Shown here: in pieces, positions 29,672-57,880 of the stretch
Layout: the number at the start of each line of letters is the position of its first letter
How positions within the stretch are numbered: position 1 is the first letter of the stretch
Source: Treponema sp.
Lineage (GTDB): Bacteria > Spirochaetota > Spirochaetia > Treponematales > Treponemataceae
Direction of reading: 5' to 3'
NCBI GenBank assembly: GCA_024402635.1
Contig: JAKSTJ010000012.1
Location: 1-59,601 of the forward strand
DNA length: 59,601 nucleotides
Program-made: the position numbers and the translations under genes
The notes under the pieces: model-generated
Databases searched by the model: none
Told to the model about the DNA's origin: nothing
The model's input: the letters and a program-made list of their open reading frames with translations, nothing else

Positions 29672-31357
29672 ATGAAAAGCGATAACGCAAAAAAAGGTGT
29701 AGAAAGAGCACCTCACAGATCATTATATTATGCATCTGGTTATACAGATGAAGAATTAGCACAGCCAATGGTTGGTATTATTTGTGCAAAAAATGAACTT
29801 ATTCCAGGTCATATTGAACTTGATCGTATTTCAGAAGCTGTAAAAGCTGGTGTTAGAATGGCAGGTGGTACTCCTGTAGAATTCCCTGCAATTGGTGTTT
29901 GTGATGGTATTGCAATGGGACACGAAGGAATGAAATATTCTTTAGTAACTCGTGAACTTATTGCAGATTCAATTGAATGTGTTACAAAAGCTCATCAGTT
30001 TGATGCTTTAGTTATGATTCCAAACTGTGACAAAATTGTTCCTGGAATGTTAATGGCTGCTGCACGTCTTGATCTTCCAACTGTATTTGTTTCTGGCGGA
30101 CCAATGATGCCAGGTCATTTACCAGGTAACGATCCATCTAATCCATATTCTGGAAGAAATCTTTCATTAACAGATATGTTTGAAGCAGTTGGTGGTCTTG
30201 CTGTTGGTAAAATCAACGAAGAACAGCTTAAAGAAATGGAACATAAAGCTTGTCCTGGTTGCGGGGCTTGTTCTGGAATGTTTACTGCAAACTCAATGAA
30301 CTGTTTAACAGAAGTTTTAGGTCTTGGTTTACCAGGAAACGGAACAATTCCAGCTGTAACAGGAGAAAGAATTGCTCTTGCTAAACATGCAGGTATGGCT
30401 GTAATGAATCTTTATAAAAAAGGAATTACTGCCCGCCAGATGATGACTGCAGAAAACTTTAGAAACGGTCTTGCAGCTGATATGGCTCTTGGTTGTTCAT
30501 CAAATACAATGCTTCATCTTCCTGCAATTGCTCACGAAGCTGGTCTTACAATTGATTTACATGAAGTAAATGATATTTCAAATAGAACTCCAAATCTTTG
30601 TCATCTTGCACCTGCTGGTCATACATTTATGTGTGAACTTGATGATGCTGGTGGTGTTCAGGCTGTTCTTGCTGAACTTGCAAAGAAAAATCTTATTAAT
30701 ACAAATCTTATTACTGCAACAGGTAAAACAATTGCAGAAAATCTTAAAGGTGTAAAAAATAGAAATCCAGAAGTTCTTCGTCCAATTGAAAATCCTTTCA
30801 GTGAAAACGGTGGACTTGCAATACTTTTTGGAAATCTTGCACCAAATGGAACTGTTGTAAAACGTTCTGCCTGTGCAAAAGAATTACTGCATCATACAGG
30901 TCCAGCCAGAGTATTTAATGATGAAAGTGAAGCAATGGCTGCTGTTCAAAAACGTCAGATTAATGCCGGTGATGTTGTAGTTATTCGTTATGAAGGTCCA
31001 AAAGGTGGTCCTGGAATGAGAGAAATGCTTGCTGTTACTGCCGCTCTTGCTGGTCAGGGATTGGATAAAGATGTTGCTCTTATTACAGACGGACGTTTCT
31101 CTGGTGCAACTCGTGGTGCTTCTTTAGGTCATTGTTCTCCAGAAGCAGCTGATGGTGGTCCAATTGCTTTAGTTCAGGAAGGCGATTTAATCGAACTTGA
31201 TATTAATAATTATAAAATTGATCTTAAAGTAAGTGATGAAGAACTTGCTGCAAGAAAAGCAAAATGGGTTTGCCCAGAACCAAAAGTAAAAACTGGTTAT
31301 CTTGCTCGTTATGCAAAACTTGTTTCTTCCGCAGATAAAGGTGCAATTTTACAATAG
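29672..31357 (+). CDS. ilvD: Dihydroxy-acid dehydratase IlvD
   Basis: A 561-aa iron-sulphur enzyme with the IlvD/EDD signatures: [36 protein letters not shown] around residue 117, [20 protein letters not shown] near 193-210, [18 protein letters not shown] and [20 protein letters not shown]. The conserved cysteines bind the cluster. It dehydrates dihydroxy acids to 2-oxoacids in valine, isoleucine and leucine synthesis. The length is normal. The last 25 bases of the gene plus 16 bases beyond the stop occur again 76 bp downstream, with one synonymous difference. Confidence 0.97.
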
Positions 31358-31363
31358 ATACTT

Positions 31364-31407
31364 GCAAGTTTGCATAGCAAACTTGGTAAGCAACCGCAGG
31401 TTGCGAC
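31364..31407 (+). repeat. Two-hairpin repeat, family A copy 3
   Basis: Hairpin 1 is GCAAGTTTGC (31364-31373) with GCAAACTTG (31377-31385) around ATA. After GTAA comes hairpin 2, GCAACC-GCA-GGTTGC (31390-31404), then GAC. Compared with the copy at 1949, the second stem pair changes from G-C to A-T on both arms, which supports a selected structure. It separates two copies of the ilvD 3' end. Confidence 0.75.
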
Positions 31408-31408
31408 C

Positions 31409-31449
31409 AGATAAAGGAGCAATTTTACAATAGATACTTGCAAGTTTGC
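31409..31449 (+). pseudogene. Duplicated 3' end of ilvD
   Basis: The 41 bases equal 31333-31373 except for GGT to GGA in a Gly codon. They include the codons for DKGAILQ, the TAG stop and ATACTTGCAAGTTTGC after it. There is no start codon. The copy ends where hairpin 1 of the preceding element would begin its loop. Confidence 0.85.
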
Positions 31450-32160: not shown

Positions 32161-33894
32161 ATGAAATTAAATGGCTCACAGATAGTAATTGAATGTTTAG
32201 TTGAACAGGGTGTAGACAGAGTTTTTGGTTATCCAGGTGGTGCAATTTTAAATATTTACGATGAATTATATAAAAACCAGGAAAGAATTACACATATTCT
32301 TACCGCTCACGAACAGGGTGCTTCTCATGCAGCTGATGGTTTTGCAAGAGCAACTGGAAAAGTTGGTGTTTGTATGGCAACTTCAGGTCCAGGAGCAACA
32401 AATCTTGTAACAGGACTTGCTACTGCATATATGGATTCTATTCCTGTAGTTGCAATTACTTGTAATGTTGGACGCTCTCTTCTTGGTAAAGATTCGTTCC
32501 AGGAAATCGATATCTGTGGCGTTACAAAACCTATCACCAAACATAATTTTATTGTTATGGATCCAAAAGATCTTGTTTCTACAATCAGACAAGCTTTTAT
32601 CATTGCTTCAACTGGTCGTCCAGGTCCTGTATTGATTGATATTCCAAAAGATATTACTGCAGCAGAAATTGATTACGAACCACTTACAGATGAAGAAAAA
32701 GCTAAACTTTTAAAGAAGGTTGAAAAAGAAGTTTATAAAAGAGAAATTAAAGTTTCTGAACCATCTGAAAAAGAATTAAAGAAAATCGCAGAAATTATTA
32801 ATAATGCAAAACAGCCTGTAATATATGCCGGTGGTGGTGTAAAAATTTCTGGAGCAGAAAAAGAACTTCTTTCATTTGCAGAAAAAGCTGAAATTCCCGT
32901 TTCTGAAAGTTTAATGGGTCGTGATGTTTTCCCTGCAACTCATCCTCTTTGTACATGGATGGTAGGGATGCATGGTACAAAAGCAAGTAATATGGCAATT
33001 ACAGAAAGTGATCTTGTTATTGCAATTGGTGCCCGTTTTAGTGACCGAGTTTATGGAGATGCTTCGAAATTTGCTCAATTAGCAAAGGTTGTTCATATTG
33101 ATATAGATCCATCTGAAATAAGCAAAAATATTAAAGCTGATGGAAATCTTATTGGTGATATAAAAGCTGTTTTGACAAAAATTTTACCTTTGATTGAAGA
33201 AAAGAAACGTGTTGAATGGCTGGAAAAAATCAATAACTGGAAAAAAGAATATCCTGCTTGTTATGATAAAAAACCTGTTAATTCAGTAAATCCTAAATTT
33301 ATTTGTGAGTGTGTAAATAAAATTGCAGGTGAAGATACATTTATTACAACAGAAGTTGGTCAGCATCAGATGTGGACTGCACAATTCTATCCATTTACAA
33401 AACCAAGAACTTTTGTAACTAGCGGTGGTCTTGGAACAATGGGATATGGAACTGGAGCTGCAATTGGTATTCAGGTAGCAAAACCAGAAGCAAGAGTTGT
33501 TCACATTGCCGGAGATGGATCTTTCCGTATGAATTGTAACGAACTTGCTACTATTACTCATTATAATCTTCCAATTGTAATTGTTGTAGAAAATAACAAT
33601 GCATTGGGAAACGTAAGAATGTGGCAAAGACTTTTCTATGGAAAACGATTCAGTCAGACAACATTAGATTTTGGACCAGATTGGGTAAAACTCGCTGCTG
33701 CATATGGAATTAAAGGTTATAAGGCAAAAAATGCAAAACAGTTTGAAAAGGCATTTGCATCGGCATTTAAATCAGGAAAACCAGCCATTGTAGAAGTTAC
33801 TGTAGATAAAGATGAAATGGTATTACCGATGGTGCCAGGTGGAAAACCAATCTACAATATGATAATGGAACTTTCCAAAGAGATGATGGATTAA
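32161..33894 (+). CDS. ilvB: Acetolactate synthase large subunit IlvB
   Basis: A 577-aa thiamine-diphosphate enzyme: VFGYPGGAILNIYDEL, the catalytic Glu in TAHEQGASHAADGFAR near residue 50, central FAD/CoA-like domain, and the ThDP motif GDGSFRMNCNELAT near 451 with NNNALGNVR. It condenses two pyruvates, or pyruvate and 2-oxobutyrate, at the first common step of branched-chain amino-acid synthesis. No ilvN regulatory subunit or ilvC follows, so the small subunit must be elsewhere or absent. The 3' end is repeated 140 bp downstream with only synonymous changes. Confidence 0.96.
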   Translation: MKLNGSQIVIECLVEQGVDRVFGYPGGAILNIYDELYKNQERITHILTAHEQGASHAADGFARATGKVGVCMATSGPGATNLVTGLATAYMDSIPVVAITCNVGRSLLGKDSFQEIDICGVTKPITKHNFIVMDPKDLVSTIRQAFIIASTGRPGPVLIDIPKDITAAEIDYEPLTDEEKAKLLKKVEKEVYKREIKVSEPSEKELKKIAEIINNAKQPVIYAGGGVKISGAEKELLSFAEKAEIPVSESLMGRDVFPATHPLCTWMVGMHGTKASNMAITESDLVIAIGARFSDRVYGDASKFAQLAKVVHIDIDPSEISKNIKADGNLIGDIKAVLTKILPLIEEKKRVEWLEKINNWKKEYPACYDKKPVNSVNPKFICECVNKIAGEDTFITTEVGQHQMWTAQFYPFTKPRTFVTSGGLGTMGYGTGAAIGIQVAKPEARVVHIAGDGSFRMNCNELATITHYNLPIVIVVENNNALGNVRMWQRLFYGKRFSQTTLDFGPDWVKLAAAYGIKGYKAKNAKQFEKAFASAFKSGKPAIVEVTVDKDEMVLPMVPGGKPIYNMIMELSKEMMD

Positions 33895-33902
33895 AAGGAT
33901 AA

Positions 33903-33964
33903 GCTAAAAATTGCAGTGCAATTTTCTTAACGCTTTTCGATAAATCACGAGGCATAAATGCCTC
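33903..33964 (+). repeat. Two-hairpin element between ilvB 3' ends
   Basis: Hairpin 1 is AAAATTGC (33907-33914) with GCAATTTT (33918-33925), framed by GCTAA and CTTAACGC. After a 15-base linker comes hairpin 2, GAGGCAT-AA-ATGCCTC (33949-33964). The hairpin 1 region matches the minus strand of the innermost hairpin at 1818-1858, including the unpaired TAA/CTTAAC sides. Its layout of two hairpins before a duplicated gene end parallels family A, but the sequence is different. Confidence 0.7.
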
Positions 33965-33970
33965 TTCTCA

Positions 33971-34049
33971 GGTACCAGGAGGAAAGCCAATCTACAATAT
34001 GATAATGGAACTTTCGAAAGAGATGATGGATTAAAAGGATAGGCTAAAA
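33971..34049 (+). pseudogene. Duplicated 3' end of ilvB
   Basis: These 79 bases repeat 33831-33909 with five differences. Four are synonymous third-position changes (Val, Gly, Lys and Ser codons) and one lies after the stop. The copy codes VPGGKPIYNMIMELSKEMMD, then TAA, and continues into AAGGATAGGCTAAAA. There is no start codon. After the shared part, this copy runs into a different hairpin from the one that follows the intact gene. Confidence 0.85.
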
Positions 34050-34050
34050 T

Positions 34051-34093
34051 ACAGGGCTGTCGTCATGCTGAACTTGATTCAGCATCCCTGTAA
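34051..34093 (+). repeat. Interrupted hairpin with ATGCTGAA dyad
   Basis: ACAGGG and CCCTGT flank ATGCTGAA-CTTGA-TTCAGCAT, with an unpaired CTGTCGTC on the 5' side. The inner dyad resembles dispersed intergenic inverted repeats I recall from other bacteria, but that memory is not checked. It follows the second ilvB end and may act as terminator or mobile repeat. The rest of the gap to the SDR gene is AT-rich spacer. Confidence 0.55.
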
Positions 34094-57329: not shown

Positions 57330-57880
57330 AAAACGACTTTTCTTTATGTCCAAAATGCGGAAGCAAAAAAATTCAGAATCAGGGTGACAGAAAATGGTTT
57401 TGCCAGGATTGTGGATTTATTTTGCATAATAATGTTGCCGCTGCTGTAGGAGCAATTATTTGCGATAAAAATAAAAATGTTCTTTTTGAAGTAAGAGCAA
57501 AAGACCCAAGAAAAGGCTTTTTAGCTTTACCAGGAGGGTTTGTTGATGCAGATGAAACTCTTGAAGAAGCAATAATCCGTGAATGTAAAGAAGAAATTGG
57601 AACTGAAATAGAATCGCCTGAATTTTTGTGTTCATATCCTAATACATACGAATATAAAGGAATTGTTTATAAAACCTGTGATGTTTTTTTTATAGTAAGA
57701 TTGCCTGAAAATCAAAGTCTGGAAGATCTTGTTTCAAAACTTTCCATTCAGGAATCAGAGGTTCAAAAACTTGTTATTTCGAAAGTTGAAAGAAAAGAGG
57801 ATGTAGAAAAGCTGCCTATGGCTTTTGAAAGTTCTATAAAAACTCTTTTGAAATTTACAGATTTAACCGCGGATATGTAA
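57326..57880 (+). CDS. Nudix hydrolase with N-terminal zinc ribbon
   Basis: A 184-aa protein. Cysteines 8, 11, 26 and 29 form a zinc ribbon (CPKC ... CQDC). A Nudix domain follows with GGFVDADETLEEAIIRECKEE at about 70-90. The NudC-specific SQPWPFPxS motif is absent, so it is not a second NudC; ADP-ribose, NAD-related or other nucleotide pyrophosphates are possible substrates. The ATG overlaps the ECF transporter stop (ATGA), so it is translationally coupled. That pairing raises the possibility that it acts on the imported vitamin or its nucleotide form, which is inference. Confidence 0.85.
   Translation: MKNDFSLCPKCGSKKIQNQGDRKWFCQDCGFILHNNVAAAVGAIICDKNKNVLFEVRAKDPRKGFLALPGGFVDADETLEEAIIRECKEEIGTEIESPEFLCSYPNTYEYKGIVYKTCDVFFIVRLPENQSLEDLVSKLSIQESEVQKLVISKVERKEDVEKLPMAFESSIKTLLKFTDLTADM

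Follow-up and report, generated by a model that had tools for sequence, protein, structure and literature searches.

The window, the whole stretch of 59,601 nucleotides of Treponema sp. DNA that was analysed, carries ilvB, encoding the large subunit of acetolactate synthase, and ilvD, both named by NCBIfam models over their cut-offs, and the 3' end of each gene is present twice. At ilvB, 79 nt (33831-33909) occur again at 33971-34049, with a start-to-start distance of 140 nt and an identity of 94%. The repeat and its five differences, described in the initial annotation, were confirmed: four are synonymous third-position changes (GTG/GTA, GGT/GGA, AAA/AAG and TCC/TCG), the fifth (A/G) lies after the stop, and the working end (copy U) and the second end (copy D) have the same meaning in 21 of 21 codons, the stop included. 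The features of both loci are as follows.

31332-31373, + strand: ilvD end, copy U (CAGATAAAGGTGCAATTTTACAATAG plus 16 nt), from TIGR00110 over cut-off and repeat comparison
31361-31407, + strand: second type of double hairpin, at ilvD, CTTGCAAGTTTGC-ATA-GCAAACTTG (arm also given as GCAAGTTTGC), then GCAACC-GCA-GGTTGC-GAC
31408-31449, + strand: ilvD end, copy D, identical to copy U at 41 of 42 positions, the lone difference being synonymous (GGT/GGA)
32161-33894, + strand: ilvB, working gene, from its open reading frame and TIGR00118 over cut-off; its last 20 codons belong to copy U
33831-33909, + strand: copy U, the working ilvB end with its stop and the first 15 nt beyond, from repeat comparison
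33897-33970, + strand: double-hairpin element, subtype GGATAAGC..TTCTCA, with hairpin 1 (33907-33925), hairpin 2 (33949-33964) and the outer stem GA.AAGC/GCTT.TC, from covariance model R1, covariation and fold
33971-34034, + strand: copy D, the second ilvB end, same frame open to the stop (VPGGKPIYNMIMELSKEMMD*), taken as the displaced end
34037-34050, + strand: second element, start only (truncated), GGATAGGCTAAAAT, with a subtype start as in L061, from by-eye comparison with aligned copies
34051-34091, strand not assigned: palindrome of another dispersed repeat (GTCATGCTGAACTTGATTCAGCAT type), from own-genome matches

Both hairpins of the element sit between the ilvB copies, as had been noted before, and 33897-33970, folded as single-stranded DNA, gave z = -3.62, with none of 200 shuffles folding as well. 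Among the 58 ends of open reading frames of at least 100 codons in the window, the score for an end duplication within 350 nt was 105 for ilvB and 34 for ilvD, the next best being 21; since only these two are duplicated, a chance repeat at ilvB was ruled out. The 15 nt after the ilvB stop (AAGGATARGCTAAAA) contain the 5' end of the element, and copy D therefore also runs into an element start, albeit a truncated one. The claim that each copy is followed by a hairpin of its own needs correcting: a hairpin (34051-34091) does follow copy D, but copy D has the truncated element start as well, and the hairpin belongs to another dispersed repeat. Of 53 own-genome matches of the ilvB query, 40 fell on this palindrome and 11, besides the locus itself, on the element. 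Compared with relatives, neither U nor D of ilvB was consistently closer.

At ilvD, the last codons and 16 nt repeat with a period of 76 around a double hairpin that is unlike the ilvB element. With up to 3 edits allowed, its second hairpin had 12 matches among the collected loci of several genomes, a number of these matches being repeat readings of one place. Because ilvD uses another hairpin, the association of double hairpins with duplicated gene ends may extend beyond one family.

A dispersed double-hairpin element in Treponema

The interval between the ilvB copies is one copy of a dispersed element of approximately 73 nt. Segments of its first 60 nt have matches at 11 further places of the own genome, and its sequence is also matched at many places in genomes of the same genus. 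The consensus of 27 aligned copies reads GGATAAGCTAAAAATTGC-nnnn-GCAATTTTTTTAACGCTTTTCGATTnATCAC-CGGCCGC-CA-GCGGCC-TTACACA, the last letters coming from comparison of the flanks, and the stems covary: 11 of 20 predicted pairs have changed at both bases, with pairing kept, in one copy or more. Covariance model R1 matched 33897-33968 at ilvB (81 bits, E 1.2e-15 in the own genome), this copy being one of the 27 from which the model was built; the right end was moved to 33970 from comparison with other copies. With the guide bases of IS200/IS605 elements in view, the sequence just before hairpin 2 was read by eye in the 27 copies: it changes along with the right end of the element (ATCA with CTCA, AACA with CACA) and is related to it by identity and not by complementarity. 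The ends ATGTGGTAA and TTACACAT are present in some copies only (by eye). A second subfamily with the outer stem ACC/GGT (AACCTAAA..TTTAACGGTT) adjoins the first at two duplicated gene ends (L007/L082 and L075).

The own genome holds 32 matches to the covariance model at E up to 0.1. In the genus, matches at E up to 0.001 were found in 26 of 59 genomes, the own included, with 0 to 33 matches each, a patchy distribution among genomes that are mostly drafts and in several cases less than 90% complete. In the order, 16 of 194 genomes (own included) had matches at E up to 1e-6, all of them Treponema, one of 74 genera, in a search with strict filters by which weak copies outside the genus may be missed. 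No Rfam family reached its gathering score for the element, with three weak matches of 12-20 bits, and a known RNA family was ruled out on this ground; the search of a plasmid collection gave no match to the element. The minus strand of the window has weaker element-like copies at 1788-1864 and 57738-57819 (57738 in minus-strand count), which may be one place.

The surroundings were examined for 118 copies, a selection, best scores first, from among the matches listed and not all of them, with 15 of the 32 own-genome matches taken and three weak matches dropped from an original 121; the set holds the tandem pairs L063, L080, L086 and L219. A gene end in sense precedes 38 copies by no more than 60 nt, in 58 an antisense gene end abuts the right end of the element, and 21 are directly followed by a ribosome-binding-like motif and a start, these being raw counts from open frames and not from annotated genes, in classes that can overlap. 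Inverted repeats enclose the copies L169, L176, L191, L152, L170 and L175, with the left arm 8-11 nt before and the right arm 2-3 nt after the element; flanking inverted repeats scoring at least 28 were counted at six of 117 copies (control 0.09%). Around some intergenic copies they may be pre-existing palindromes.

One ordinary insertion, seen by eye as an empty and a filled site, gained approximately 70 nt and duplicated at most about 2 bp. At another site, hairpin 2 alone is missing in a relative and, therefore, hairpin 2 is a separable module. A search for candidate enzymes revealed PF01797 (Y1 transposase) in 12 and PF00078 (reverse transcriptase) in 17 of 59 genomes, neither tracking the copy number of the element. 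PF01797 had no match in G004, G015, G071, G076, G024 and G002 (21-31 copies; G024 is 83% and G002 71% complete), and since high-copy genomes are without a match, a Y1 transposase was ruled out as the resident mover. PF00078 had no match in the high-copy genomes G004, G015, G071, G076 and G002, the first four of which hold 22-31 copies. A diversity-generating retroelement was rejected since the changes at ilvB are not adenine-directed and the reverse transcriptase does not track the copies, and an integron attC site since, on inspection of the 27 copies, the conserved AAC faces an unpaired T and has no GTT partner. With an extra length of 140 nt at ilvB and of about 200 nt in the purB units described below, the inserts are too short for an endonuclease ORF or an integrase gene.

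Gene ends on both sides of the element

The arrangement of gene end, element and second gene end was found in seven of the 118 copies, clear of the control: at ilvB and purL in the own genome, at iorA in G024 and at purB in G003, G025, G076 and G078 (genomes of the genus are given as G numbers, loci as L numbers). Three control values of 110-132 are taken to be purB paired with purB, and all others were 19 or less. The count looked in sense only, where 91 of the 118 copies have a gene end upstream; a scan of both strands added only intergenic tandem repeats and weak matches, and one further hit (L086) is an intergenic tandem repeat and not a gene. The same seven stood out among 120 loci (30 each of four genes; for purB, 30 of at least 66 matches listed in the genus were read), with the element between the copies in seven of seven and a best score beyond them of 23 (L221, no real match). 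The names purL, purB and iorA rest on best NCBIfam matches below the whole-protein cut-offs and on supporting Pfam domains, purL and iorA having been tested as their last 250 residues and purB having TIGR00928 below and Pfam ASL_C above cut-off. In the initial annotation, an ordinary tandem duplication in relatives with an unvarying element, or a lack of other genes with the arrangement, had been held to make a special mechanism unlikely; the element does vary between copies, and other genes of the genome and the genus share the arrangement.

The element also occurs without an end duplication, as at purB of G014 and downstream of ilvB in G086 (L259). As a rule the element does not carry a gene end, since 111 of the 118 copies are without a gene-end duplication and the ordinary insertion added no more than about 70 nt. 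At iorA in G024 (L079), the displaced end and the start of the following gene share bases (TAATGG), and the ribosome-binding site of that gene seems to lie in the displaced end, which may therefore stay useful.

Four genomes have the purB insertion at one and the same base, pointing to repeated site-specific entry or else to descent with the second copy kept under constraint. Compared with G004, purB of G086 is 91-98% identical up to 10 codons before the site and 77% identical over the 9 codons that directly precede it; in the final 27 codons, 56 of 81 positions agree. Between G076 and G086, 24 differences were found from -180 to -22 and none from -21 to +80 (102 positions), while the stop codons differ. 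Because the bodies differ while the ends share 102 identical positions, comparison of these genomes shows that the working purB end in G076 and G086 was imported. In G076, copy D agrees with G004 and G024 at 71 and 70 of 81 positions and copy U at 56 and 53, and the flank downstream of D is, by eye, that of G004 and G024; judged by this likeness, D is native in G076. A 73-nt element lies at the right border of this import, and G086 has the imported end without the element or the native copy in the 240 nt shown. Sharp left borders, no more than a few bases from the site, were seen in G086 (against G004) and in G025 (against G094), the latter pair having one difference from -180 to -9 and 12 from -8 on.

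Copy D of purB was closer than U to relatives in 12 of 14 comparisons for G003 and in 10 of 14 for G076. At purL, D was closer in 17 of 24, with five ties and two in which U was closer; only tails were used, seven of the 24 body comparisons being out of register (gene ends of other length). In G025, U of purB was closer in 10 of 14 and D in two, with two ties; both copies differ from the close relative G094 at 8 of 81 positions and are closer to each other than to G094, and the flank after the second copy resembles the G094 terminator. In G078, U was closer in seven and D in five, with two ties, and the copies share the first bases after the stop. For these two genomes the donors would be near relatives or the copy would be local, and similarity does not tell which copy is native.

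Pooled over the seven U/D pairs, 60 synonymous and 9 non-synonymous codon differences were counted in 155 codons, stops included; unconstrained change would give about 58 non-synonymous ones. None of 2000 simulations gave 9 or fewer, even with only half or a quarter of the changes unconstrained, under a uniform substitution model and with four of the seven pairs being purB and not independent genes. The purB codons of U and D are alike in meaning at 28 of 28 in G025 and at 26 of 28 in G078. Since the differences are mostly synonymous, the second copies most likely acted as gene ends until recently.

At purB, the new stop is followed, ahead of the element, by a stretch that matches the opening bases of the imported end exactly as their reverse complement. 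The complement measures 15 nt in G025, 15 nt in G003, 16 nt in G076, 13 nt in G078 and 9 nt in G014; elsewhere in 721 nt of purB it reaches 9 nt at most, so that the value of G014 is at background level and a complement of 13-16 nt is present in four of five genomes. It tracks the imported end (TTTTTT with AAAAAA in G003, GAGCAG with CTGCTC in G076), and the complement to the second copy is shorter (5-9 nt). Since the stretch complements the imported end and changes together with it, the purB unit can fold as three stems, and the fold predicted for G025, G003, G076 and G078 encloses the gene end in the loop of stem 0, the first of the three. By eye, no such complement was seen at ilvB, purL and iorA.

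Origin of the duplicated ends

On balance, the ilvB repeat was probably left by a small Treponema element of two hairpins, for which we predict movement between strains together with a recoded gene 3' end. Such a unit would enter a gene a few dozen bases before the stop; the imported end would be read as the new end of the gene, the element would come next, and the native end would be shoved downstream as an unused second copy. The unit may enter as single-stranded hairpin DNA with a complement stretch guiding it to its site, and an enzyme supplied in trans may cut at the right end of the element (TTACACA or TTACTCA). Synonymous recoding would be favoured because it prevents recombination between U and D, which would delete the element. 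The initial annotation had offered two accounts of ilvB, an element that brings a recoded gene end and an incoming allele that leaves the resident end behind. The first is supported in the main by purB in G076 and G086 and by the gene-end duplications in the genus, and at purB of G076 and G086 the second is true together with it. For ilvB alone, with four synonymous differences and no copy consistently closer to relatives, we infer the import from the element family.

An imported tract next to a native remnant, as at purB, would also result from homologous recombination with a related strain in which the element already followed the stop of the gene, with an illegitimate right-hand join inside the resident gene end and the element as a passenger; purB of G014, with its end, a linker and the element but no second copy, looks like such a donor. 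Illegitimate joins would scatter, however, whereas the right junction falls on the same purB base in four genomes and at the end of the element in seven of seven, and the left border lies at or near the start of the inverted repeat in both readable pairs (G025/G094 and G086/G004). We regard this recombination as unlikely, though it is the alternative to be taken most seriously. Somewhat less probable again is a local event that the element only provokes, either a tandem duplication or a template switch at the hairpins, after which the copies diverged. Taken alone, ilvB and ilvD might indeed be young local duplications: the copies differ at only 5 of 79 and 1 of 42 nt, respectively, and copy D ends inside the first hairpin arm at both genes. 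The likeness of the G078 copies just after the stop and the mutual closeness of the G025 copies point the same way. But a local event cannot yield ends identical at 81 of 81 positions in G076 and G086 next to unlike bodies and a native copy D, by which it is refuted for purB of G076, and it would require that a presumably untranslated copy be under coding constraint.

Two further mechanisms account for the layout in principle. In retrohoming, a transcript that stops at the element would be copied into cDNA, which would prime in the target gene and recombine further upstream. This would fit the seven duplications, in each of which the element lies in sense on the 3' side of the gene end (in a sense-only count), as well as the fixed right and the seamless left end; it leaves the covarying inverted repeat of purB unexplained, and the reverse transcriptase is without a match in G004, G015, G071, G076 and G002. 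Since this enzyme does not track the copies, retrohoming was rejected as the main cause, and we consider it very unlikely. A long target-site duplication, made by a staggered cut of 40-90 bp at insertion, would leave just the observed order of repeat, element and repeat, but the ordinary insertion duplicated at most about 2 bp (by eye), in several pairs the synonymous sites differ far too much, and it is false for G076, where the purB end was imported; of all the explanations we give this one the least credence.

Within the preferred reading, that of an element moving with a recoded gene end, the guide-like complement at purB is the basis of a more specific model, which we offer tentatively and hold to be possible rather than likely. 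The purB unit would be a gene-free homing cassette of about 200 nt: a three-stem single-stranded DNA, of which a guide of 13-16 nt directs it to one essential gene, the recoded end rescues that gene and the two-hairpin part is recognised by a host enzyme. In effect this would be a gene drive with a recoded rescue in bacteria, which could be retargeted by changing guide and end and would have struck purB independently in several species.

Small, dispersed elements of two adjacent hairpins are known from fungal mitochondria, and the Treponema element resembles them in build but differs in sequence and host; to our knowledge, no recoded gene end is associated with the fungal ones. In bacteria, MITE, REP and IS200/IS605-derived elements are short, dispersed and palindromic, lie at gene borders and are patchily distributed. 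The Treponema element is like them in size and placement but has no Y1 transposase that tracks it, and we know of none among them that carries a gene end. A literature search that covered titles and the openings of abstracts, with few subscription journals in its scope, gave no match for a Treponema repeat or an ORF-less carrier of gene ends.

Duplicated C-termini are described for mobile endonuclease ORFs of fungal mitochondria, in atp6 of Allomyces and in atp6, atp9, cox2 and nad3 of Glomus, where, according to the account in PMC3630166, the imported C-terminal end is fused and the displaced native end still matches relatives, with differences that are largely synonymous. As in those ORFs (PMC3630166), the imported end is in frame and the native end is displaced in Treponema (purB of G076 and G086); the fungal inserts, as characterised there, carry a LAGLIDADG or GIY-YIG endonuclease gene, whereas the Treponema unit is bacterial, comprises approximately 73-200 nt with two or three hairpins and has no ORF besides the gene end. 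In Escherichia coli, prophage e14 inserts in frame into icd and the incoming end restores the gene; a displaced copy of 165 bp remains, and the two are reported to be 12 nt apart with two conservative replacements (PMC11148124). As described in that source, e14 is a prophage with an integrase gene and one site (PMC11148124), whereas the Treponema element is tiny, dispersed and found at many genes. Gene-end swapping is thus known with prophages and endonuclease genes; here it would be done by an ORF-less dispersed double hairpin.

An element of this kind would show how very small elements settle in essential genes, and would account for the abruptly recoded tails by which conserved proteins mislead phylogenies. 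The movement and targeting of hairpin DNA could be studied in it as a compact system and, since the purB complement covaries with the imported end, the question of a guide is directly testable.
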